From positions 1 through 63,400 of the forward strand of contig NZ_JAFBCZ010000034.1 in assembly GCF_016907925.1 (NCBI RefSeq): a DNA stretch of 63,400 bases, read 5' to 3'. The position numbers and the translations under genes are program-made. This stretch comes from Herpetosiphon giganteus (GTDB lineage: Bacteria; Chloroflexota; Chloroflexia; Chloroflexales; Herpetosiphonaceae). The notes under the pieces were generated by a model. It was not told the origin of the DNA and ran no database searches. It worked only from the letters and a program-made list of their open reading frames with translations. This document shows, one piece after another, positions 11,893 through 55,962 of this stretch (positions are counted from its first letter, which is position 1; every line of letters begins with the position of its first letter).

Positions 11893-11975
11893 CAAGAACA
11901 AAGAACATAGAGCATAGAACATAGCCAAGCTAATGGCTTCTCTGCGGCTCTGCGTTTAACATAGAAATCAATCGC

Positions 11976-16025: not shown

Positions 16026-16477
16026 GAACTTCCTCCTACTACAACGTACCGAGATGCTTTACTATACGCTAGTAAGGGCTTTTTGTGCGCACATTTTGCG
16101 ATTAACCCAGATAGCTGAGGGATGAAGAACATAGAACACAGAGCATAGAACATAATCCCAACAATCTGTGTCAATCTGTGGCTAAAACAGCCTTCACGAT
16201 CTTCGCGGTTTCTCCCCTTCGTGCACTTCGTGGATCAAGAGTTTAACGCAGCGGCGCAGAGCCATGAAATTATGAAGGATGAATTATGAAGGATGAAGCG
16301 CGATTATTCGGGCAATTCGTGGCTAAAAAACTTAACCTTCGCGTTCTTCGCGTTCTTCGCGGTTTCTCCCCTTCGTGCGCTTCGTGGATCAAAAACCGAT
16401 CCCCGATCCCCATCAACCGATCCCCAATATGGTATGATGACTGACGTTATCCGCGATTGAATGCCGCAGGAAGATAC
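16026..16477. repeat. Intergenic mosaic of short dispersed words
   Basis: No gene is seen. The stretch holds recurring words found in other gaps: AACATAGAACACAGAGCATAG, ATGAAGGATGAATTATGAA, CTTCGCGGTTTCTCCCCTTCG, GTGCGCTTCGTGGATCAA and GTTTAACGCAGCGGCGCAG. A possible -10 (TATGAT, 16432-16437) for the MutS-like gene lies near its end. Confidence 0.7.
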
Positions 16478-22908: not shown

Positions 22909-23338
22909 ACCGAAGGATGAATTATGAGGGATGAAGAGCAAGGATGAATTATGAGGGATGAAGGATGAAGAGCGAGGAGTTAGGGATCAGGATTCAGGGG
23001 CCAGGTTTAACGCAGAGGCGCAGAGCGTTGAGAAGGATGAAGGAGGAAGAGCGAGGAGTAGTGGCTAGGTGTAATGATTTATTGCCTTAACAACGGTTTT
23101 CCCCCTCACCCCTCACCTGCCTGCAGGTGAGGGGGGAACCACAAGACCATTGCTCCCCTCGCCCGCGTTCAGTGGGAGAGGGGCTGGAGGTGAGGGCATG
23201 CCAAATGATCTTCGATAGCCAAAAGCCCATAGCCTATAGCCCCATCTTCGTGCTCTTCGCGCGCTTCGCGGTTCCTATCCTTCGTGTCCTTCTCGGTTGC
23301 TGGCCCCTGATCCCTAAAACCTAGCCCCTCAGCAAAAA
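22909..23338. repeat. Intergenic repeat mosaic with a decayed inverted-repeat element
   Basis: No gene. It contains GAAGGATGAATTATGAGGGA words, then (about 23066-23218) a decayed copy of the ~180 bp element. The flank TGCCTTAACAACGG and the CCCTCACC...GGTGAGGG core are kept while the terminal repeats have diverged. CTTCGCGCGCTTCGCGGTTC words follow. Confidence 0.65.
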
Positions 23339-25237: not shown

Positions 25238-25668
25238 AATACTGATTCCTCCAATGCTTCGCGATGTCGGGTTTTCATTGAACCCCCTGCACGCCATCGC
25301 GAACCTGTCTATAGAATACCAGCCAGCCCTGAAACTTAAGGAAAAACTTCACAACCTAAGACAGAGGGATGACAACAAACGATAAAATTATGAAGGATGA
25401 GGGATGAAGGCTGAAATATCCACGAAGCATGAAAACCGCGAAGAACGCGAAGGTTAATTTTTTTAGTCACAGATTCCCACAGATTTCCCTAATTATGTTT
25501 CCCATAGCCTCATCCCTCTGCGCCTCTGCGTTAAAAATCCGATCCACGAAGGACACGAAGGGTTGAAACCGCGAAGGGCGCAAAGATCGCGAAGCGCTGT
25601 AAGCTTTGGGATCTAGGCTCTCTGTTCTTTTTGATTTTTGACTTCTGACTTTTGATTTTCATCCCTAA
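25238..25668. repeat. Intergenic word mosaic
   Basis: No gene. It presumably holds the pckG promoter near the right side of the start. The rest is recurring words (CACGAAGGACACGAAGGGTT, AACCGCGAAGGGCGC, TCTGCGCCTCTGCGTTAAAA, CACAGATTCCCACAGATTT). Its last 100 bp belong to the 120 bp repeat shared with 26494-26613. Confidence 0.65.
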
Positions 25669-25686
25669 TTAGGGCGTTGCGGTTGG
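25567..25686. repeat. 120 bp direct repeat, copy 1
   Basis: Runs from AACCGCGAAGGGCGC through CTAGGCTCTCTGTTCTTTTT to the GGGCGTTGCGGTTGG that ends the lipoprotein gene. Copy 2 (26494-26613) has the same length and nearly the same sequence. Confidence 0.8.
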
Positions 25687-26439
25687 AGTAAATGTTGGCG
25701 TTAAGCTCAGAAGCACGGTTCCCAGTGGATCAAGCCACTGGCGCGTTTCGAGGTTAAACCGCAGAACTACGCTGCTGGCATCGGTAATGGTTGCAAAATA
25801 AATCTGCGCACCATCCGTATGATGAATATATAAGGGTTCTATTGTGCGGGGAGAACTATAGCGTGCCGCAACATCCTGTGTTTGGATCGTCTGCGTTTCC
25901 ACCAGTATATACGATACGCTAGGGTCAGCATCTTTTGTATAGAGTACCAATTCATATTGGGAGAGCGTATCGACCATGAACCAACAATCATGGACGGTTA
26001 TCGTTCGATCAGGAATATCAAAACATCCATAATGCCGCCCAATACCTCTTAGCACTGGTGACAAAAATGGGGTGAGACAAGTACCATTGGCTTTTGAGGT
26101 AGCAATTGCTGCAAAATCAGGGCTGAGCGTGCGAGTAGGCCCACCCGCCGCGACGGTCGCTTCATAATATTCTGATTCGCGATCACGGTCGGCCCAATAG
26201 GTTGCCGCAGCCGCTGGTTCAAGAGTTGGGCTTTGGGCAAAAGCCGTGGCTTGGGCATGCAGGGTTGCATTAATCGCATCCACCGTTTCGGTTGGATGAA
26301 TCGTGATCGATGGAATTGTTAAGGCTCCTTGGCCACGCTGCGCTGGCGACGCAGCTGGCTGATTAATGGTTTGGCCACAGGCGGCGAGGACGAGCAACAA
26401 TCCAACACTCAGATTGATCGTTCGCTGAAGGCTACGCAT
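25669..26439 (-). CDS. Putative lipoprotein, duplicated family member A
   Basis: 256 residues, not recognised as a known enzyme. The N-terminus is a lipoprotein signal (MRSLQRTINLSVGLLLVLAA then Cys), so it is anchored outside the membrane. A Ser/Thr/Pro-rich stretch follows, then a region with FNLETRQWLDPLGT near the C-terminus and a TPTFTPTATP tail. The neighbouring gene B has almost the same signal sequence, the same FNLETRQWLD motif and tail. ATG at 26439 is preceded by GGAGC at about seven bases. The stop falls inside the direct repeat. Confidence 0.7.
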   Translation of the reverse strand: MRSLQRTINLSVGLLLVLAACGQTINQPAASPAQRGQGALTIPSITIHPTETVDAINATLHAQATAFAQSPTLEPAAAATYWADRDRESEYYEATVAAGGPTRTLSPDFAAIATSKANGTCLTPFLSPVLRGIGRHYGCFDIPDRTITVHDCWFMVDTLSQYELVLYTKDADPSVSYILVETQTIQTQDVAARYSSPRTIEPLYIHHTDGAQIYFATITDASSVVLRFNLETRQWLDPLGTVLLSLTPTFTPTATP

Positions 26440-26493
26440 CAAAAGCTCCACACACTGAATTAATCGTGATCCACGAAGCGCAAGAAGAATGGG

Positions 26494-26613
26494 AACCGCG
26501 AAGGGCGCGAAGATCGCGAAGGGCTGTAGGCTTTGAGACCTAGGCTCTCTGTTCTTTTTGATTTTTGCCTTCTGACTTTTGATTTCCATCCTTGGTTAGG
26601 GCGTTGCGGTTGG
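26494..26613. repeat. 120 bp direct repeat, copy 2
   Basis: Second copy of the 25567-25686 repeat. It covers the 3' end of lipoprotein gene B and the space before gene A, as expected if gene plus flank were duplicated together. Confidence 0.8.
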
Positions 26614-27183
26614 CAGCGGCGTGCCATCTACATCGAGCCATTGACGCGTTTCAAGATTGAATAATAAGTGGGTTGTATTGGTATACAGATCAACGATTGG
26701 ATAATTAACTGTATGGATTTTGATTGATCCTATGCGTTGCGGTGTATCATATATTGCTCTTCCATCGTTGAAAACAAGAATTCTGCCTTGCTGGGGATAG
26801 ACGGTTTTTGATCCAGAATGAACACCTAAATTTCTCCGTTCACTCAACCAACAGTTTCTAGGAATGAAACCGCGAAACGGCTCACAGGAATTAGACAGAA
26901 CATCTGGGTACAAGGTTGGCGATGGCGGAAATGTCAGGATTGGCGGCTGGGATGTTGGTGATAGCGCAAGCTCGGTTGCAATGCTTCTCGCTACTTGAGT
27001 ATCAAACACAAATTTTTTCGCCAAGGTCGGGCTAGGGACAATGGCGGTAGCCGTATTCACGACCGATCCTTGGCCACTTTGACTTGCTGGTTGCACTGCT
27101 GGCTGGGTGTTAGTTCGGCCACAGGCGGCGAGGATGAGCAATAAACCGAGGCTAAAAATGATCGTTCGCTGAAGGCTACGCAT
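26596..27183 (-). CDS. Putative lipoprotein, duplicated family member B
   Basis: 195 residues, function unknown. The lipobox signal MRSLQRTIIFSLGLLLILAA-Cys is nearly identical to gene A, and the C-terminal LFNLETRQWLDVDGTPLPT and PTATP tail also match. The middle is shorter and diverged. ATG at 27183 lies behind the same GGAGCTTTTG ribosome-site context as gene A, showing that the upstream flank was copied too. Confidence 0.68.
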   Translation of the reverse strand: MRSLQRTIIFSLGLLLILAACGRTNTQPAVQPASQSGQGSVVNTATAIVPSPTLAKKFVFDTQVARSIATELALSPTSQPPILTFPPSPTLYPDVLSNSCEPFRGFIPRNCWLSERRNLGVHSGSKTVYPQQGRILVFNDGRAIYDTPQRIGSIKIHTVNYPIVDLYTNTTHLLFNLETRQWLDVDGTPLPTATP

Positions 27184-27710
27184 CAAAAGCTCCACACTCT
27201 CTAAAAAGGCTTTGCTCGCCATCATTGCACAGGCGAGTGAATTGTCTCAATGATAAGCAACTGAAAGTTGTCTGAGGTTATCGATGTTGATCCACGAAGG
27301 ACACGAAGGACACGAAGGGTTGAAACCGCGAAAATCGCGAAGCACGATTGTTTAGCCACGAATTCCACGAAGCTTTTTAGCCACAGATTCCACAGATTTG
27401 TTTGATTCTTGTTCCCTTAGCCACGAGCCAAGAGCCTTCCTCTGCGCCTCTGCGTTAAAAGTGCGCTCTATAAATTAAGTTTTTCGCCACAGATTATTAT
27501 TCTCATAGCCTATGGTCAATAGCCACATCCCCTCGCACTTTATGCTCTCTGCTCTATGTTCTATGTTCTTCATCCTTCATCCTTCATCCATTCTCTTTTT
27601 GACTTTTGATTTTTGCCTTCTGCCTTCTGATTTTCATCCCTCATCCTTCATACTTCATCCTTCTATATCGGTGCTATCATAGCAAGCGGCTTTGTTTCAG
27701 AGGATTTGCC
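27184..27710. repeat. Intergenic word mosaic between lipoprotein B and the SpoU gene
   Basis: No gene. It contains CACGAAGGACACGAAGG tandem units, CCACGAATTCCACGAAG, CCACAGATTCCACAGATTTG, CTCTGCGCCTCTGCGTTAA, CTCTGCTCTATGTTCTATG and CATCCTTCATCC words. A possible extended -10 TGC-TATCAT (near 27672-27680) could serve the SpoU gene. Confidence 0.65.
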
Positions 27711-28449: not shown

Positions 28450-28495
28450 CCCTCACCCCAACCCCTCTCCCACTGAACGCGGGCGAGGGGCTTTT
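28450..28495 (+). terminator. Dispersed palindromic core used as terminator
   Basis: CCCCTCTCCC pairs with GGGCGAGGGG (one mismatch), followed by CTTTTGATT. It starts eleven bases after the SpoU stop. Same family as the cores at 31467, 32923, 46672 and 55843. Confidence 0.65.
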
Positions 28496-31466: not shown

Positions 31467-31597
31467 CCCTCACCCCAACCCCGCTCCCGTGACGCGGGCG
31501 AGGGGCTTTAATCTGGTGGTTCGCTCCCAATTCCTTGGTAAAAACGGGTACTCCCCCTCGCCCGCGTTTTCGTGGGCAAGGGGGCTGGGGGTGAAGG
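31467..31597. repeat. Paired palindromic core repeat
   Basis: Two copies of the core in opposite orientation, CCCTCACCCCAACCC...CGGGCGAGGGG and CCCCCTCGCCCGCG...GGGGGCTGGGGGTG, which can fold on each other. It begins 17 bp after the GT2 stop. Confidence 0.7.
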
Positions 31598-32922: not shown

Positions 32923-33178
32923 CCCTCACCCCCAACCCCTCTCCCGTCCAACGGGCGAGGGGCTTTAACGCCGTGGTTCGTGCAAAAATCCTTGCAAAAA
33001 CGGGTGCTCCTCCTCGCGCGCGTTCAGTGGGAGAGGGGGTTGGGGGGTGAGGGAACGCTCCACCGCCGACCAATCGCTCAAAACCGACCCTTGAAAGGAG
33101 GGGGCTGGGGGGTGAGGGACGCTACAAACCACCAATTCTTTAAAATCTACCCTTGCCTTGAAAGGCTGGGGGTGAAGG
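32923..33178. repeat. Palindromic core repeat cluster
   Basis: A full inverted pair (32923-33053: CCCTCACCCCC... and ...GGGGGGTGAGGG) is followed by two partial cores (about 33080-33119 and 33152-33178, each with GCTGGGGG-GTGA). Repeated insertion or gene conversion at this site is likely. No gene. Confidence 0.7.
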
Positions 33179-44066: not shown

Positions 44067-44408
44067 AGGGATTCCAATGTGCTCCTGGGTAGTTCTTTGT
44101 TTCTTGGCATGCCATTAAATTTCTGGCGAGTGATCGAGTACGGTCACCCATTACCGCTTAAAACTACCAACAATTAGACAAATACAATTTGATATGTGAC
44201 GACATCAAACCAGTTGGAATGATGTATTGCGTGGGCGGCATCGCCTCTCATGGGATACTCAACGCGGCTAGTATACCATATCATCGCTGTCTGTATAGCC
44301 CTGAATTTGTGCACAAGGGTTCAGGGGCTAGGAGTCAGGGTTCAGGGACTAGGCTATTGGCTATAGGATGACAAATCATGATCATAGCAACATATCCGCC
44401 GCTAGTTC
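44067..44408. other. Upstream region of the NYN gene
   Basis: No gene. It holds the likely NYN operon promoter (44270-44278) and a block of TCAGGGGCTAGGAGTCAGGG-type words (44328-44360). Confidence 0.5.
44270..44278 (-). promoter_or_regulatory. Extended -10 promoter of the NYN operon
   Basis: Minus strand TGG-TATACT about 200 bases before the NYN start codon. There is no strong -35. Confidence 0.5.
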
Positions 44409-44589
44409 ATAGCTGTACTGGTACATTGCGTTAACCACCATCTGATTCCCTCACCCCCTAGCCCCCTCTCCCGTCGAACGGGCGAGGGGGAACCACGGAG
44501 TCGGACTCCCCTCGCCCGCGTTCAGTGGGAGCGGGGCTGGGGGTGAGGGCATGTCCTTGGTTGCCAATCGAATGAACCAATACACATAG
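44409..44589. mobile_element. MITE-like inverted-repeat element, copy 1
   Basis: 181 bp. The ends are inverted repeats: left ATAGCTGTACTGGTACATT (44409-44427) and right, read in reverse, CTATGTGTATTGGTTCATT (44571-44589). Inside is the palindromic CCCTCACCCC...CGGGCGAGGGG / CCCCTCGCCCG...GGGGTGAGGG core. No coding capacity. Copies 2 and 3 have the same plan and length. Confidence 0.75.
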
Positions 44590-44670
44590 CCTAAAGCATT
44601 TAGTTTTCATACGACTATTTGGTTAAATCCTAGCTCCTGATAACTGACCTCTGATCCCCCATAGTAACGT

Positions 44671-44699
44671 TTGACGCACATGCAATGGGTAGGTAGAAT
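44671..44699 (+). promoter_or_regulatory. Promoter of the UbiA-family gene cluster
   Basis: TTGACG (44671-44676), 17-base spacer, TAGAAT (44694-44699), 53 bases before the ATG. Confidence 0.75.
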
Positions 44700-44752
44700 G
44701 ATCACTGCTAGGCGAAAGCGATTCGTCAGGCTCAAGGAGTAGAGTAATTTGT

Positions 44753-45685
44753 ATGCAACAGCCCTATAAAATAGCCCAACCGCAACTCTCAAAAATGCCC
44801 AAATATCTGTTTTTGACGATGCGGCCCAAACAGTGGGTCAAGAATATTTTTGTCTTTGCAGGCTTAATTTTTGCCAACGATATGCTCTTGACCAATCCCC
44901 AGAGCTTATTACGGGTGCTCGCAACCTTTGGCCTGTGGTGTTTAATCGCTAGCTCAATTTATCTCATCAACGATTTGGTCGATATTGAAAAAGATCGCGA
45001 TCATCCCAAAAAGCGCTATCGCCCGCTGGCGAGTGGCCATCTTGCCCCAAGCAGCGCAATTATTGCGACGCTGATCTTTTTGGGCATTGGCTTGCCTTTG
45101 GCTTGGATGCTGAGCCGTGGCGTAGCAATTATTCTGGCCGTCTATGTCGTGATGCAATTAGCCTATTCGTTTCGGCTCAAGCATGTCGTGATTCTCGATG
45201 TGTTTATCATTGCCGCAGGCTTTGTCTTTCGCACAGTTTCGGGCGCGGTGGTATTGCGCATTGATATTTCGCCCTGGTTGTTGATTTGTACTGGGCTGTT
45301 GTCGTTGTTTCTGGCGCTGGCCAAACGTCGCCACGAGTTGGTTTTGCTTGAAAGTGGCGCTGGCAGCCATCGCCGTGTGCTCGAAGAATATTCAACCGAG
45401 CTGCTGCAAGAAATGATTTCGCTGATTACCGCCAGCACCTTGATTGCCTATATTTTGTATACACTTAACCCAACCAATCCTCATGTGCCAACTAGTCCTT
45501 TTCCTTTGATGTTGATCACCGTGCCATTTGTGATTTATGGTATTTTCCGCTACCTCTATTTGGTCTATAAAAAAGATGAAGGCGGTAGCCCAGAAGAATT
45601 GTTGCTTAAAGATTTGCCAATGTTAGCCGATATTGTGCTTTGGGGCATAACGGTTGTGGCAATTATGTATATCTTTCGCCAATAG
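44753..45685 (+). CDS. UbiA-family transferase, decaprenyl-phosphate phosphoribosyltransferase-like
   Basis: 310 residues with seven to nine transmembrane helices. The UbiA motif is NDLVDIEKDRDHPKKRYRP (~74), with HPxKxxRP typical of the group that moves phosphoribose from PRPP to polyprenyl phosphate (the mycobacterial Rv3806c type). The start RPKQWVKNIFVFAGL also fits that subgroup. The product would feed synthesis of an activated sugar-lipid for envelope glycans; a quinone- or lipid-prenylating role is the alternative. It leads a close-packed cluster with the ABA4-like and thioesterase genes. Confidence 0.85.
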   Translation: MQQPYKIAQPQLSKMPKYLFLTMRPKQWVKNIFVFAGLIFANDMLLTNPQSLLRVLATFGLWCLIASSIYLINDLVDIEKDRDHPKKRYRPLASGHLAPSSAIIATLIFLGIGLPLAWMLSRGVAIILAVYVVMQLAYSFRLKHVVILDVFIIAAGFVFRTVSGAVVLRIDISPWLLICTGLLSLFLALAKRRHELVLLESGAGSHRRVLEEYSTELLQEMISLITASTLIAYILYTLNPTNPHVPTSPFPLMLITVPFVIYGIFRYLYLVYKKDEGGSPEELLLKDLPMLADIVLWGITVVAIMYIFRQ

Positions 45686-45694
45686 GAGTTGGTT

Positions 45695-46159
45695 ATGCAA
45701 ACACCTCGTTCACCGTGGTTGGATCGCCTGTTTAGCCTCGCAAACCTCGCGGTTATCCCAGGTTGGCTGTTGATGATCGGCGCACCACGTTCACGCTGGA
45801 CACAACGGGTGATCAACGATGATCGCTTTTTTATTGGGATGGGCGGTCTCTATGCAGCCATGTTGGGTGGCGCACTGGCTGAAAACGATGGCAAAGGCTT
45901 CAATTTCAGCGCAATGCTCAATCCAACCCTCGATTCGATTGGCAAATTGTTTCAAGAAGGCGGCCCCAAGGGCACGTTTGCTGGCTGGACACATTATTTA
46001 ATCTTTGATTTCTTCGTTGGGCGGGCAATTTTGCGCGATGCTCAAGAGAAAAATATTCCACACTGGTTGATTGTGCCAGCCTTGATTTGCACCCTAATGA
46101 GCGGGCCATTGGGTTTGGCCTATTATCAAGTGCTGTTACGCGTGCGGGGTGCAGCGTGA
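45695..46159 (+). CDS. ABA4-like (DUF4281) membrane protein
   Basis: 154 residues with about four hydrophobic segments. The family pattern is visible: LFSLANLAVIPGWLLMI, a GWTHYLIFDFFVGRAI block and SGPLGLAYYQVLL near the end. In plants ABA4 is needed for neoxanthin formation; the bacterial role is not established. The ATG at 45695 is six bases after TAGGAG. It sits nine bases after the UbiA-family gene and its TGA overlaps the GTG of the thioesterase gene. Confidence 0.78.
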   Translation: MQTPRSPWLDRLFSLANLAVIPGWLLMIGAPRSRWTQRVINDDRFFIGMGGLYAAMLGGALAENDGKGFNFSAMLNPTLDSIGKLFQEGGPKGTFAGWTHYLIFDFFVGRAILRDAQEKNIPHWLIVPALICTLMSGPLGLAYYQVLLRVRGAA

Positions 46160-46662
46160 ACGAACGCCCAATTCGGCGCACGCCGCTGATTCGTATGTCG
46201 GATATTGTGCTGCCTGGCCAGACCAATAACCATGGCACGATGTTTGGTGGTGAAGTGTTGGCGATGATGGACCGCGCGGCGGCGATTGCCGCGATTCGCT
46301 TTTGCCGCCAACAAGTCGTCACTGCTTCGACCGAACGAATCGATTTTCGCACGCCGATTCATCATGGCGATTTGGTTGATATGCTGGCCAAAGTAATTTA
46401 CACCGGTACGACTTCGCTAATTGTACGGATCGATGCCTGGGCCGAAGACCCCATTTCTGGCGAACGGCGCTGGTGTACGACCGGCTTCTATTCGATGGTT
46501 TCGGTGGGCATTGATGGCCGTCCAACTGCGATTCCGCGTTTGTTGGTCGAAACCCCAACCGAACAAGCCGATTGGGAGCATGGTGCGAAGATCAAGGCCT
46601 TGATTAGCGAACGGCTCAAAGCCAACGATGCGCCGATTCCTGCTGATCCGCTGACGTTCTAA
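46156..46662 (+). CDS. Hotdog-fold acyl-CoA thioesterase (YciA-like)
   Basis: 168 residues, one hotdog domain. Signature: LPGQTNNHGTMFGGEVLAMMD (active-site loop with Asn/His/Gly), STERIDFRTPIHHGDLVDM and TTGFYSMVSVG. Such enzymes hydrolyse acyl-CoA thioesters in the cytoplasm. The GTG at 46156 overlaps the preceding stop (GTGA), pointing to coupled translation. A dispersed-repeat terminator follows after nine bases. Confidence 0.88.
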   Translation: MNERPIRRTPLIRMSDIVLPGQTNNHGTMFGGEVLAMMDRAAAIAAIRFCRQQVVTASTERIDFRTPIHHGDLVDMLAKVIYTGTTSLIVRIDAWAEDPISGERRWCTTGFYSMVSVGIDGRPTAIPRLLVETPTEQADWEHGAKIKALISERLKANDAPIPADPLTF

Positions 46663-46671
46663 AATTTCATG

Positions 46672-46721
46672 CCCTCACCCAAGCCCCTCTCCCACTCAAC
46701 GCGGGCGAGGGGAATTTTTTT
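46672..46721 (+). terminator. Dispersed palindromic core used as terminator
   Basis: CCCCTCTCCC pairs with GGGCGAGGGG, then AATTTTTTT. It lies right after the thioesterase stop; this is the clearest case of a core with a full U-run. Confidence 0.75.
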
Positions 46722-46750
46722 GAAGCGTTTTTATATCGATGAGGTGAATT

Positions 46751-47731
46751 ATGCAAGCGATTGTGTTTGATCAAGCTGGCGATGCTGAGGTCTTACGCTT
46801 GGCCGAAGTTGCCGATTTGCAGCCGCAAGCTGGCGAATTGTTGATTCGGGTGCATGCGACCGCCGTCAACCGTGCCGATATTTTGCAGCGCCGTGGGATG
46901 TATCCAGCGCCAGCGGGAGCCTCGGAGATTTTGGGGTTGGAAATTGCTGGCGAAGTGATTGGCCATAGCGCAGGAGTTAGCGCGCCAGCACTTGGCACGC
47001 GAATTTGTGCATTATTGCCAGGCGGCGGCTATGCCCAACAAGTCGTGATTCCGGCAGAGTTGGCAATGCAAATTCCCGATAGCTTGAGCTACGAACAAGC
47101 AGCTGCTATTCCCGAAGTCTGGATGACTGCTTATGACAACTTGTTTAACTGGGGTCGTTTGAGCGCTGGCGAACGCTTGTTGGTGCATGGCGGCAGCTCA
47201 GGCATTGGCACGGCGGCGATTCAACTGGCAGGTTGGCGCGGCGCTGAAGTGATCATCACTGCTGGCTCGGCAGCAAAAATTGAGCGTTGCCGCGAGTTGG
47301 GTGCGCTTGCTGGCATCAATTATCGGACTGAAAATTGGCCTGAACGCCTGCAAGAATTGACTGATCACCAAGGCGTTGACGTGGTGTTGGATATGCTCGG
47401 AGCCAGCTATTTCAACGCTAACTTGGCCAGCTTGCGGGTTGGCGGGCGTTTGGTGATTATTGCAACTATGGGCGGGGCGCAAACCGAGCTTGATCTGCGC
47501 ACGCTGATGCTCAAACGCTTGACGGTGTGTGGCACGACCTTGCGCGCGCGTCCGATTGCCGCCAAAGCTGCGCTGACTCAGCAAGTGCTTCAAGATGTAT
47601 TGCCACGCTTTGCAGATGGCACATTTAAGCCAGTGATTGAAGCGGTGTTTGATTTGGCCGAAGCCAGCGCCGCCCATCGTTTGCTAGAATCGAGCCAGCA
47701 CGTAGGCAAAATTGTGTTGCGAGTTAAGTAG
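46751..47731 (+). CDS. NAD(P)H:quinone oxidoreductase, zinc-free MDR family
   Basis: 326 residues of the medium-chain dehydrogenase family. Seen: VNRADILQRRGMYPAP, GLEIAGEVIGHS, the cofactor loop LVHGGSSGIGTAAIQLA, ITAGSAAKIERCRELGA and DVVLDMLGASY. There are no zinc-ligand cysteines, as in quinone oxidoreductases of the PIG3/QorA type. It reduces quinones or enones with NAD(P)H in the cytoplasm. A GAGGTG ribosome site precedes the ATG. Followed by a long repeat region. Confidence 0.92.
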   Translation: MQAIVFDQAGDAEVLRLAEVADLQPQAGELLIRVHATAVNRADILQRRGMYPAPAGASEILGLEIAGEVIGHSAGVSAPALGTRICALLPGGGYAQQVVIPAELAMQIPDSLSYEQAAAIPEVWMTAYDNLFNWGRLSAGERLLVHGGSSGIGTAAIQLAGWRGAEVIITAGSAAKIERCRELGALAGINYRTENWPERLQELTDHQGVDVVLDMLGASYFNANLASLRVGGRLVIIATMGGAQTELDLRTLMLKRLTVCGTTLRARPIAAKAALTQQVLQDVLPRFADGTFKPVIEAVFDLAEASAAHRLLESSQHVGKIVLRVK

Positions 47732-47861
47732 AAGAGCATAGAGCAAAGAACATAGAACATAGTTTGATCCACAAAGCGCACGAAGAACGGAAACCGCGAA
47801 GAGCGCGAAGAGCACGAAGAACGGAAACCGCGAAGAGCGCGAAGGCTGATGTGGCTATGGG
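47732..47861. repeat. Word mosaic before MITE copy 2
   Basis: Tandem-like AACCGCGAAGAGCGCGAAG and GCACGAAGAACGGA units plus AGAGCATAGAGCAAAGAACAT. No gene in 47732-48249. Confidence 0.65.
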
Positions 47862-48040
47862 CTATGTGTACTGGTACATTGCGTTAACGACGGTTTTCTC
47901 CCTCACCCCCTAGCCCCCTCTCCCGTCGAACGGGCGAGGGGAACCGCTGGATCAGGGTTCCCCTCGCCCGCGTTCAGTGGGAGCGGGGCTGGGGATGAGG
48001 GCATGCACATGGTTGCCAACCAATGAGCCAATACAGCTAT
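47862..48040. mobile_element. MITE-like inverted-repeat element, copy 2
   Basis: 179 bp. The left end is CTATGTGTACTGGTACATT (47862-47880) and the right end (48022-48040), reversed, is ATAGCTGTATTGGCTCATT. The core matches copy 1 almost base for base, including CGAACGGGCGAGGGGAACC and CGCCCGCGTTCAGTGGGAG. Confidence 0.75.
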
Positions 48041-48249
48041 GGGCTATGGAGATTCTTGAGTTACTACCCATGTTCCGATAGCCTATAGCCATCAGCCAAA
48101 AGCCATCGTTCCTCTGCGCCTCTGCGTTAAATGCTGATCCACGAAGGGCACGAAGGCTGTTTTCGCCACAGATTGGCACAGATTCGGAGAATGAGGCTTT
48201 TAACTTCATCCCTCATCCTTCATAATTCATAATTTCGTGGCTCTATGTT
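48041..48249. repeat. Word mosaic after MITE copy 2
   Basis: CTATAGCCATCAGCCAAAAG, CTCTGCGCCTCTGCGTTAA, CACGAAGGGCACGAAGG, CCACAGATTGGCACAGATT and CATCCCTCATCCTTCATAAT words, ending at the DUF2071 gene stop. No gene. Confidence 0.6.
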
Positions 48250-48960
48250 CTATGCATTGGGCAACTTTTGATGTGGAAATACCTTAACCACCGAGCCTTT
48301 GGCCAAAACGACTGAATAGGGCCTTTCATTGGCGAGCCATGCCCACTGCGGGCCATAGATCGCGCCCCAATCGAAGTGCAATTGGTAACGCTCCACGGGA
48401 TACACATCCCACTCAGGGTGCTCAACCCGATAGACAATTGGCTTACCATTGCGCCTGCGCCCAAAGCCCCATTCGTGCTCTTTGAAAAAATGTTCAGTTC
48501 TTGCAGCATCAGGGTGATAGAGCTGATTGCTGGCGGTCAGCTTGACCAAATTGGTTTGGCCTTGCCAGTATAACGTGTGCTCAACCGTGATTTGGCCTGC
48601 GCTGTGTTGGGTTTGGCTCTGCAAAGGCGCGGCCACATATGGCTCGTTGTAGAGCACATTGGCTAAACTTGCAACCAGCCATTGAGGCACGATTTCGCGT
48701 ATAAACACTACGCCACGTTGCTGGCCACGGCGCACATAAAAGCGCAAATTCATTTCGGCAAAATTGCGAAAGCCGGGCCAAGCCACGCCTAAAACCTTGG
48801 TTTGCAGAAAATCAAATACTACCAAACTCACAAACGCCGAGCCATCACGCCGATCAAGCTCTAAGCCATGTGGCAAATAGGGCAGCAAAAGTTGATCTGG
48901 CACGGCATACGAGATCAAGCCAAGATTGGCCCATTGGGCCGCTAAAAACGCGAAGCTCAT
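48250..48960 (-). CDS. DUF2071 (YqjF-like) protein
   Basis: 236 residues, soluble. DUF2071 pattern: an early YAVPDQLLLPYLPHGLELD, SLVVFDFLQTKVLGV, FAEMNLRFYVRR and VVFIREIVPQW, and a late WDVYPVERYQLHFDWG. Proteins of this family have an acetoacetate-decarboxylase-like barrel but no proven activity. ATG at 48960 has AAGGAG six bases upstream. A single gene set between two repeat regions. Confidence 0.82.
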   Translation of the reverse strand: MSFAFLAAQWANLGLISYAVPDQLLLPYLPHGLELDRRDGSAFVSLVVFDFLQTKVLGVAWPGFRNFAEMNLRFYVRRGQQRGVVFIREIVPQWLVASLANVLYNEPYVAAPLQSQTQHSAGQITVEHTLYWQGQTNLVKLTASNQLYHPDAARTEHFFKEHEWGFGRRRNGKPIVYRVEHPEWDVYPVERYQLHFDWGAIYGPQWAWLANERPYSVVLAKGSVVKVFPHQKLPNA

Positions 48961-49151
48961 GCTTGCTCCTTGGTGGATTAGGGATCGGGGTTCAGGGGCT
49001 GGGGATTGGTAGCTTGTGCTGGCTAATAGCTCGTCGGCAATCATCCAAACCCTAATCCCTATTTTGCCACAGATGTTGAGAATTAGGCCATGGGCTATTG
49101 GCTATTGGCTTTTGGATTGAATTTAGGATAAGGAAATCATTCCGTTAGCTT
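48961..49151. repeat. Repeat words upstream of the DUF2071 gene
   Basis: ATCGGGGTTCAGGGGCTGGGG and TGGGCTATTGGCTATTGGC-type words. No gene is seen. Confidence 0.55.
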
Positions 49152-49329
49152 ATAGCTGTAATAGTTCATTGCGTTAACCATGGCCTGATCCCCTCACCCC
49201 CTAGCCCCCTCTCCCGCCCGCGAGGCGAGGGGGAACCGTGCAGTCAGTGCTCCCATCGCCCGCGTTCTGTGGGAGCGGGGCTGGGGGTGAGGGAACACGG
49301 TTTCCAATCCAATGAACCAGTACACATAG
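49152..49329. mobile_element. MITE-like inverted-repeat element, copy 3
   Basis: 178 bp. The left end is ATAGCTGTAATAGTTCATT (49152-49170) and the right end (49311-49329), reversed, is CTATGTGTACTGGTTCATT. The inner core is CCCCTCACCCCCTAG...GGCGAGGGGG and CGCCCGCGTTCTGTGGGAG...GGGGGTGAGGG. Confidence 0.75.
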
Positions 49330-49423
49330 CCTAGAGCCAAATCTTTGTGTGCTAAACCCTGACCCCTAGCCCTTTCATCCTTCATCCCTCATCCTTCGTC
49401 CTTCACTCTGTTCTCTGTTCGTC

Positions 49424-55842: not shown

Positions 55843-55962
55843 CCCTCACCCCAACCCCCTCTCCCACTGGACGCGGGCGAGGGGGAGTCAACGATGGTTT
55901 CCCAACGATCTGGGTGAAAAAGCCCCTCGCCCGCGCCACGGGAGAGGGGTTGGGGTGAGGGG
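55843..55962. repeat. Long palindromic core pair after cphA
   Basis: 120 bp: CCCTCACCCCAACCCC... (55843 on) is the near-perfect reverse complement of ...GGGGTTGGGGTGAGGGG (to 55962), with CGCGGGCGAGGGG / CCCCTCGCCCGCG inside. It lies between convergent genes and is likely a two-way terminator. Confidence 0.75.

Follow-up and report, generated by a model that had tools for sequence, protein, structure and literature searches.

How does a bacterial chromosome come to carry several copies of a short, strongly palindromic element that has no transposase gene, and are such copies moved as transposons or through the hairpins that they contain? The question is raised by a 63,400-nucleotide stretch of Herpetosiphon giganteus DNA (hereafter the window), which is contig C34 (NZ_JAFBCZ010000034.1) of a 6.16-Mb genome and holds three such elements within 5 kb. 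An initial annotation of the window left two readings side by side, namely miniature inverted-repeat transposable elements (MITEs) mobilised by a transposase encoded elsewhere, or a family resembling repetitive extragenic palindromes (REP) and bacterial interspersed mosaic elements (BIME). Both have turned out to be apt, each at its own level. As whole units the elements are very probably MITEs that derive, as non-autonomous forms, from an IS481-like insertion sequence (IS), with an inverted pair of intrastrand triplex motifs standing in place of its transposase gene. At the level of the core alone they are BIME-like, with an inverted motif pair that also occurs without the transposon ends. 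MITE status is well supported by the ends, by 6-bp target duplications, by empty sites in related genomes and by an IS with matching ends in a sister species.

The elements begin with TGTA and finish with TACA, within imperfect terminal inverted repeats (TIRs) of about 25 bp (consensus TGTA(C/A)TGGTTCATTG(G/C)(G/A)TT(A/G)(A/G)CAAC). The annotation was right about three related elements, their places and their shared imperfect TIRs, but it had given the repeats as 19 bp, and its lengths of 181, 179 and 178 bp include about 5 bp of target on each side (171, 169 and 168 bp without it). A decayed copy suspected near 23066-23218 is real as well, runs from about 23070 to 23218 and has kept its left end and core. 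There is no transposase gene in the elements; the annotation's claim that they hold no open reading frame (ORF) needs one correction, since among ORFs of at least 80 amino acids a single, mechanically called 85-amino-acid frame overlaps copy 2. An Rfam scan of the window returned only the end of a 16S ribosomal RNA. The single strand of copy 1 folds with a z-score of -5.85 and that of copy 3 (taken from 49158) with a z-score of -5.26.

Searching the host genome with the terminal repeats, as the annotation had recommended, gave 154 matches to the 25-base end at no more than 3 mismatches and 0 matches to the reversed pattern. The same end has 107, 35, 85, 137 and 2 matches in five other species of the genus, again with none for the reversed pattern, and is thereby present in 6/6 genomes of the genus; outside it, 7 of 295 sampled Chloroflexota genomes have one match each. 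Three contigs (C1, C2 and the window) together hold 21 pairs of ends at element distance (10, 7 and 4), and 5 shuffles of each gave none; among the 4, one element is counted a second time with another left end. BLAST with copy 1 gave at least 76 matches from 40 scored of 336 first-look candidates in the host genome. Copy number is better taken from the ends because many of the BLAST matches are one place read on the opposite strand. Abundance in the whole genome is derived from searches and a 12.5% sample. TIR-bounded candidates in the genus measure 137-263 bp, mostly 164-201 bp.

Target-site duplications are exact at two of the window copies and agree at 5/6 bases at the third. From retrieved loci of the genus we assembled 62 TIR-bounded candidates, of which the host genome contributed 38 and its relatives 24; a second left end causes at least one place to be counted twice. 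Six-bp duplications directly abut the TGTA and TACA ends, exactly in 25/62 and at 5/6 bases in 14/62, while control hexamers taken 6 bp further outward reached 5/6 or better in 0/62. TA lies at the centre of 24 of the 25 exact duplications, usually as CATAG/CTATG, a motif belonging to repeats that are dispersed between the genes of the genus. The intergenic DNA of the window itself is packed with dispersed families of short repeats (GAACATAGAGCATAG, GGCTATGGGCTATTGG, CTTCGTGTCCTTCGTGG, CCTCTGCGCCTCTGCGTTAAA, TTCATCCTTCATCC and TTTTGACTTTTGAC), examples of which lie at 11894-11968, 16125-16392, 25385-27663, 47732-47844 and 48111-48235, among others.

Comparison with five relatives revealed that the window sites lack the element in 13/13 syntenic site-by-genome comparisons. 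Site 1 is empty in 5/5 relatives, with H. aurantiacus having a nearby motif pair that lacks these ends. Sites 2 and 3 are each empty in 4/4 syntenic relatives, H. aurantiacus being non-syntenic there with a different right-hand neighbour. The clearest empty sites are site 2 in relative G004 and site 3 in relative G002; emptiness of site 3 in G003 and G005 was judged from alignment spans together with the end scan, and the exact junctions of the empty sites are approximate owing to flanking repeats. The annotation had named an absence of empty sites and ends that vary freely among copies as findings that would speak against mobility. What we see instead is an empty site in every comparison and a consensus that extends over 25 bp.

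The common palindromic core reported by the annotation proved to be two inverted copies of a unit of the form CCCTCNCCC-loop-GGGNGAGGG-spacer-GGGNGAGGG, which by its sequence is the intrastrand triplex motif (TM/BoxC/PIT). Exact matches to this motif number 50 (20, 23 and 7) in the 770,206 bases of C1, C2 and the window; ten dinucleotide-shuffled versions of each contig contain none. Loop-closing pairs are of a few fixed types. The 7 exact matches in the window have loops of 7 or 9 and spacers of 4-7; the E. coli form (loops 3-6 and 3) has 0 exact matches in the same 770,206 bases. Among the MITE-borne units of the window 2/6 are exact and 4/6 carry mismatches, and fuzzy matching over the 770-kb sample gave 91 hits in 50 loci; as this matching does not seek the best match, its mismatch numbers are unreliable, and exact counts were taken separately. 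These 50 loci comprise 15 within TIR-bounded elements, 3 next to a single end and 32 that stand alone. Searches against plasmids gave partial matches over the motif core only.

A core of this kind invites the explanation that the elements are BIME- or REPIN-like repeats whose hairpins mediate movement, with a REP-associated tyrosine transposase (RAYT, a Y1 transposase) as a possible agent, and that the shared ends are simply conserved flanks. The core is indeed an inverted pair of imperfect palindromes, and units of the same kind occur alone behind stop codons. Nevertheless, the 6-bp duplications adjoin the TGTA and TACA ends and not the hairpins, which largely refutes this explanation. The Y1 profile PF01797 has no match in the host genome or in G004, both of which are among the three genomes richest in ends, and has 1-2 matches in each of four other genomes of the genus. 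A RAYT as mobiliser of the core was rejected on its absence from the host genome in this profile search, and we consider movement through hairpins highly improbable.

If the elements are instead MITEs, an autonomous IS should share their ends, and the annotation had placed the transposase elsewhere. We scanned transposase loci for such ends (NF033577 in the host genome, 6 loci; PF00665 in the genus, 27/27; PF01609 in the genus, 30/57 matches) and found a matching IS, in a sister species and not in the host genome. This 990-bp element (L184:408-1397, genome G002) runs from TGTA to TACA between flanks TCTATG and TCTATA, with mismatches to the MITE consensus at 6/25 positions of the left end and 3/25 of the right. 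A decayed full-length copy of 967 bp in G004 is closer at both ends (3/25 and 2/25) and is flanked by CATAGC and CATAGA. G002 has two more copies, each interrupted by contig ends, with right ends 1 mismatch from the consensus and flanking hexamers that agree exactly, namely CATAGA (G002 contigs C34 and C30) and GCTACC (G002 contigs C22 and C7). From this agreement each pair of contig ends would appear to be a single insertion; GCTACC is the better evidence, as the CATAGA flanks lie in DNA rich in that hexamer. There are relics too, an additional remnant in G004 and a fragment in G001. Sequence searches with the partner IS found no match in the host genome, G003 or G005, and the window copies look orphaned because no partner was found in their own genome.

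The intact-looking IS contains two overlapping ORFs (460-831 and 810-1388) that join at a run of eight A residues, a run that is also present in the decayed G004 copy. The best NCBIfam family of both ORFs is IS481 (NF033577), and their Pfam domains are the rve_3 integrase core and a helix-turn-helix. The second ORF had no match in a sequence search of the PDB. The junction of split frames at a run seen in two species (L184:460-1388 and L210) suggests a candidate programmed -1 frameshift. The MITEs also share an asymmetry of ends with the IS, 37 of the 62 candidates having one L-type and one R-type end, 2 having two R, 3 having two L and 20 being undecided.

It could be argued that the ends belong to a different transposase which the sister-species element merely resembles. 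In favour of this, the IS is unmatched in three genomes of which two have many end matches, its intact-looking copy has a divergent left end, and ends were screened at the loci of three transposase models only. On the other hand, the identical TGTA...TACA termini, right ends that are 1-3 mismatches off the consensus, a 6-bp duplication and a TA-centred target are shared, and the end search among the 295 genomes of the phylum outside the genus gave nothing beyond its 7 single matches. We therefore regard a different transposase as unlikely. Other candidates were tried and rejected. Two resident IS481-like elements (L091 and L093) occur in one copy each and have other ends and 5-bp duplications (CTGAG and CGACC). 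Spans of 1.5-1.6 kb bounded by matching ends in L122, L202, L193 and L207, taken at first as possible autonomous copies, are places where a different IS has inserted within MITE or motif hairpins, and the ORFs of the long candidates L102/L146, L083, L089 and L151 look by eye like host genes next to one end. The hairpin-inserted IS is about 1.3 kb long, has a PF01609-type transposase and ends GTTTAAGGGCGGACAGG, and is found in three species (L122:1571-2875 and L207 in G001, L202 in G002, L193 in G004). By analogy it may be hairpin-targeting, like the REP-targeting ISs described in the part of PMC1525189 cited here.

A second type of MITE has the same ends around a different core (GGGGGTGCAGGGGGATTAAAGCCCCCTGCG...) and measures about 225-263 bp (L064, L067, L075, L098, L103, L108, L113 and L118). 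It accounts for all 5 loci sampled in G002 and for 3/30 loci sampled in the host genome. Two of its insertions, L064/L098 and L075/L113, look common to the host genome and G002, having the same 12-base flank.

Motifs that stand alone behave differently from those in MITEs with respect to genes. With gene calls from a simple longest-ORF heuristic, an ORF 3' end was found no more than 30 bp away from 18/32 stand-alone loci and no more than 100 bp away from 29/32; for MITE loci the counts are 0/15 and 5/15. One example is the stand-alone motif at 46672, behind which a T run follows. At the orthologous place a different hairpin, again with a T run, was recognised by eye in G002 and G005; the motif itself is present in G004, and in H. 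aurantiacus there is a related hairpin. Because of this clustering at ORF ends and this replacement of one hairpin and T run by another, stand-alone motifs may be terminators in this genome, contrary to the E. coli motif, which is reported without terminator activity in the passages cited from Holder et al. 2015 (PMC4666352). This raises the alternative that selection retains the MITEs for a role as portable bidirectional terminators or as hairpins at mRNA ends, with mobility being incidental. The stand-alone loci and the 46672 replacement lend it some weight, but none of the MITE loci comes within 30 bp of an ORF end, two of the three window copies sit between divergent genes, the E. coli report points the other way and none of the three window insertions is common to the compared relatives; such selection is thus a very unlikely explanation. 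The end-less pairs of the window (31479-31583, 32936-33038 and 55856-55949) have, by eye, spacers like those of a MITE subtype of about 200 bp (L072, L074, L081, L082 and L087), as if cores had been swapped between stand-alone pairs and MITEs.

Table 1. Positions of the elements, their target-site duplications and the triplex motifs in the window.
Feature	Position	Strand	Remarks
MITE copy 1	44414..44584	+	171 bp; left end R-type, right end L-type
MITE copy 1, ends			TGTACTGGTACATTGCGTTAAC / TGTATTGGTTCATTCGATTGGCAAC
MITE copy 2	47867..48035	+	169 bp
MITE copy 3	49157..49324	+	168 bp
Decayed copy	23070..23218	+	left end (2/15 mismatches) and core kept, right end lost; end coordinate approximate
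Target-site duplication, copy 1	44408..44413 and 44585..44590		CATAGC left, CATAGC right
Target-site duplication, copy 2	47861..47866 and 48036..48041		GCTATG left, GCTATG right
Target-site duplication, copy 3	49151..49156 and 49325..49330		TATAGC left, CATAGC right (5/6)
Triplex motif, copy 1 unit 1	44448..44488	-	exact fit, loop 7, spacer 7
Triplex motif, copy 1 unit 2 (inverted)	44509..44547	+	fuzzy match
Triplex motif, copy 2 unit 1	47900..47940	-	exact fit
Triplex motif, copy 2 unit 2	47961..48001	+	fuzzy match
Triplex motif, copy 3 unit 1	49193..49231	-	fuzzy match
Triplex motif, copy 3 unit 2	49253..49293	+	fuzzy match
Stand-alone triplex motif	46672..46711	-	9 bp behind stop codon, then T run; no transposon ends
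Stand-alone triplex motif	28450..28489	-	10 bp behind stop codon
Inverted motif pair without transposon ends	31467..31597	.	16 bp behind stop codon
Inverted motif-hairpin pair without transposon ends	32923..33045	.	7 bp behind stop codon
Inverted motif pair without transposon ends	55843..55961	.	between convergent genes

How the hybrid arose is most likely a matter of capture followed by amplification through transposition. The left and right ends of an IS481-like element (TGTA...TACA) would have been retained while its transposase gene was lost, and an inverted motif pair was probably captured between these ends rather than built in place, perhaps aided by the motif's own tendency to break and recombine. 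An IS481-like transposase supplied in trans would then have recognised the ends of about 25 bp and inserted the hybrid at N(C/A)TA(T/G)N sites with a 6-bp duplication, such sites being plentiful in the dispersed CATAG/CTATG repeats. The hybrid would thereby have been amplified within the genus, and the copies of the host genome would since have diverged and ceased to move.

Several observations weigh against the derivation of MITEs from this IS. Fewer than 5 of 6 duplicated bases are present in 23/62 candidates, some of which reflect chance or mis-paired ends. The closest full-length pair among the 38 host-genome candidates is 93.5% identical (another is 94.9% identical over 137 bp), and because the closest full-length pair reaches just 93.5% we see no recent activity in this genome. 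Movement of the MITEs is a prediction from their sequence. Additionally, the IS copy that looks intact has a rather divergent left end and split transposase frames, the latter making its activity putative. Finally, the two ORFs, taken apart, score 112.5 and 57.8 bits against NF033577, where the cut-off is 224 bits; since both scores fall under it, we name the partner IS481-like.

The triplex motif has been reported in more than 260 genomes of many phyla, with an origin that the cited passages of PMC4666352 call unclear; the same passages mention inverted motif pairs and report that no remnants of a transposase or integrase were found next to the E. coli copies. Our search of the open-access full-text literature found neither a link between this motif and transposon ends nor the candidate partner IS, and nothing relevant on repeats, insertion sequences or transposases in Herpetosiphon. 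As far as these searches reach, both the association of the motif with transposon ends and the candidate partner are new. The elements show one route by which the motif can move. With a small transposon family as its carrier, for which there are a candidate transposase, target duplications and empty sites, this route is concrete and testable, and the genus allows gain of the motif to be followed site by site.

Does this route extend beyond the genus? An exact hairpin pattern matched at least 113 stretches across GTDB genomes, and the matches listed include, by record title, Chloroflexota, Planctomycetota, Cyanobacteria, Proteobacteria, Acidobacteria, Armatimonadetes and others. Of the places among the matches listed, 115/119 agree with the triplex motif, and at 8 an inverted partner follows no more than 250 bp downstream. 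A strict scan for 14-bp inverted repeats (no more than 2 mismatches) with exact 5-9-bp duplications around the motif passed 3/100 motif loci and 0/500 random positions in the same stretches, the composition of the latter not being matched to that of the motif loci. One passing element is a 145-bp cyanobacterial sequence (L258:4270-4414) with an inverted motif pair and the duplication ATTACCTCC. Another, from Pirellula (L287:5914-6213), has 300 bp, an inverted motif pair and the duplication CGTCTCGC, which may lie in a recurrent target sequence; it has a 96%-identical copy without a clear duplication on another contig of the same genome (L357:6196-6495) and an 87% relative in L265. The third, in a metagenome-assembled genome of Methylococcaceae (L313:5102-5178), is 77 bp long with one motif and the duplication GCCTAATC. 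Acquisition of the motif by mobile elements that are unrelated to each other may thus have happened more than once.

A more general idea has the motif dispersed through bacteria by unrelated transposons, which repeatedly take it up as the core of a MITE, in many cases in the form of an inverted pair. The Herpetosiphon IS481-type family would then be one well documented case, the other three elements having other ends and 8- or 9-bp duplications, and stand-alone motifs would be either relics with decayed ends or secondary settlers kept behind genes. We hold this idea to be possible though doubtful. Looser settings gave 7/100 versus 14/500, 5/100 versus 10/500 and 8/100 versus 3/500, a weaker excess, and we trust the strict setting alone. 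That setting must miss much because none of the 6 Herpetosiphon loci among the 100 passed. The general idea is a lead, and the elements beyond the genus are leads and not proof.

The Herpetosiphon elements can finally be set against known systems. Bacterial MITEs are short and gene-less, with TIRs, target duplications, the ends of an autonomous IS and many dispersed copies. The Herpetosiphon elements have all of these features; unlike in typical MITEs, their core is formed by an inverted pair of a motif that also lives independently in bacteria, and not by a remnant of the IS. Members of the IS481 family have ends of the TG...CA type and a 6-bp duplication, with which the partner IS agrees. 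NF033577 is the best family for both of its ORFs, yet it scores below the curated cut-off and its gene lies in two overlapping frames. With the E. coli triplex motif, as described in the cited passages of PMC4666352, the Herpetosiphon motif shares the order of blocks, the occurrence of inverted pairs and, in the host genome, a mostly intergenic location. It differs from the E. coli form in its loops (7 or 9 in the window rather than 3-6) and spacers (4-7 rather than 3), and in that copies sit between transposon ends. The resemblance to BIMEs and REPINs, which in the cited part of PMC3733652 are marked by GTAG/CGTC tags, lies in the intergenic position and in a core whose two palindromic units are inverted and separated by a short spacer. 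In contrast to these, the Herpetosiphon elements are bounded by IS ends and target duplications, in a genome with no match to PF01797.

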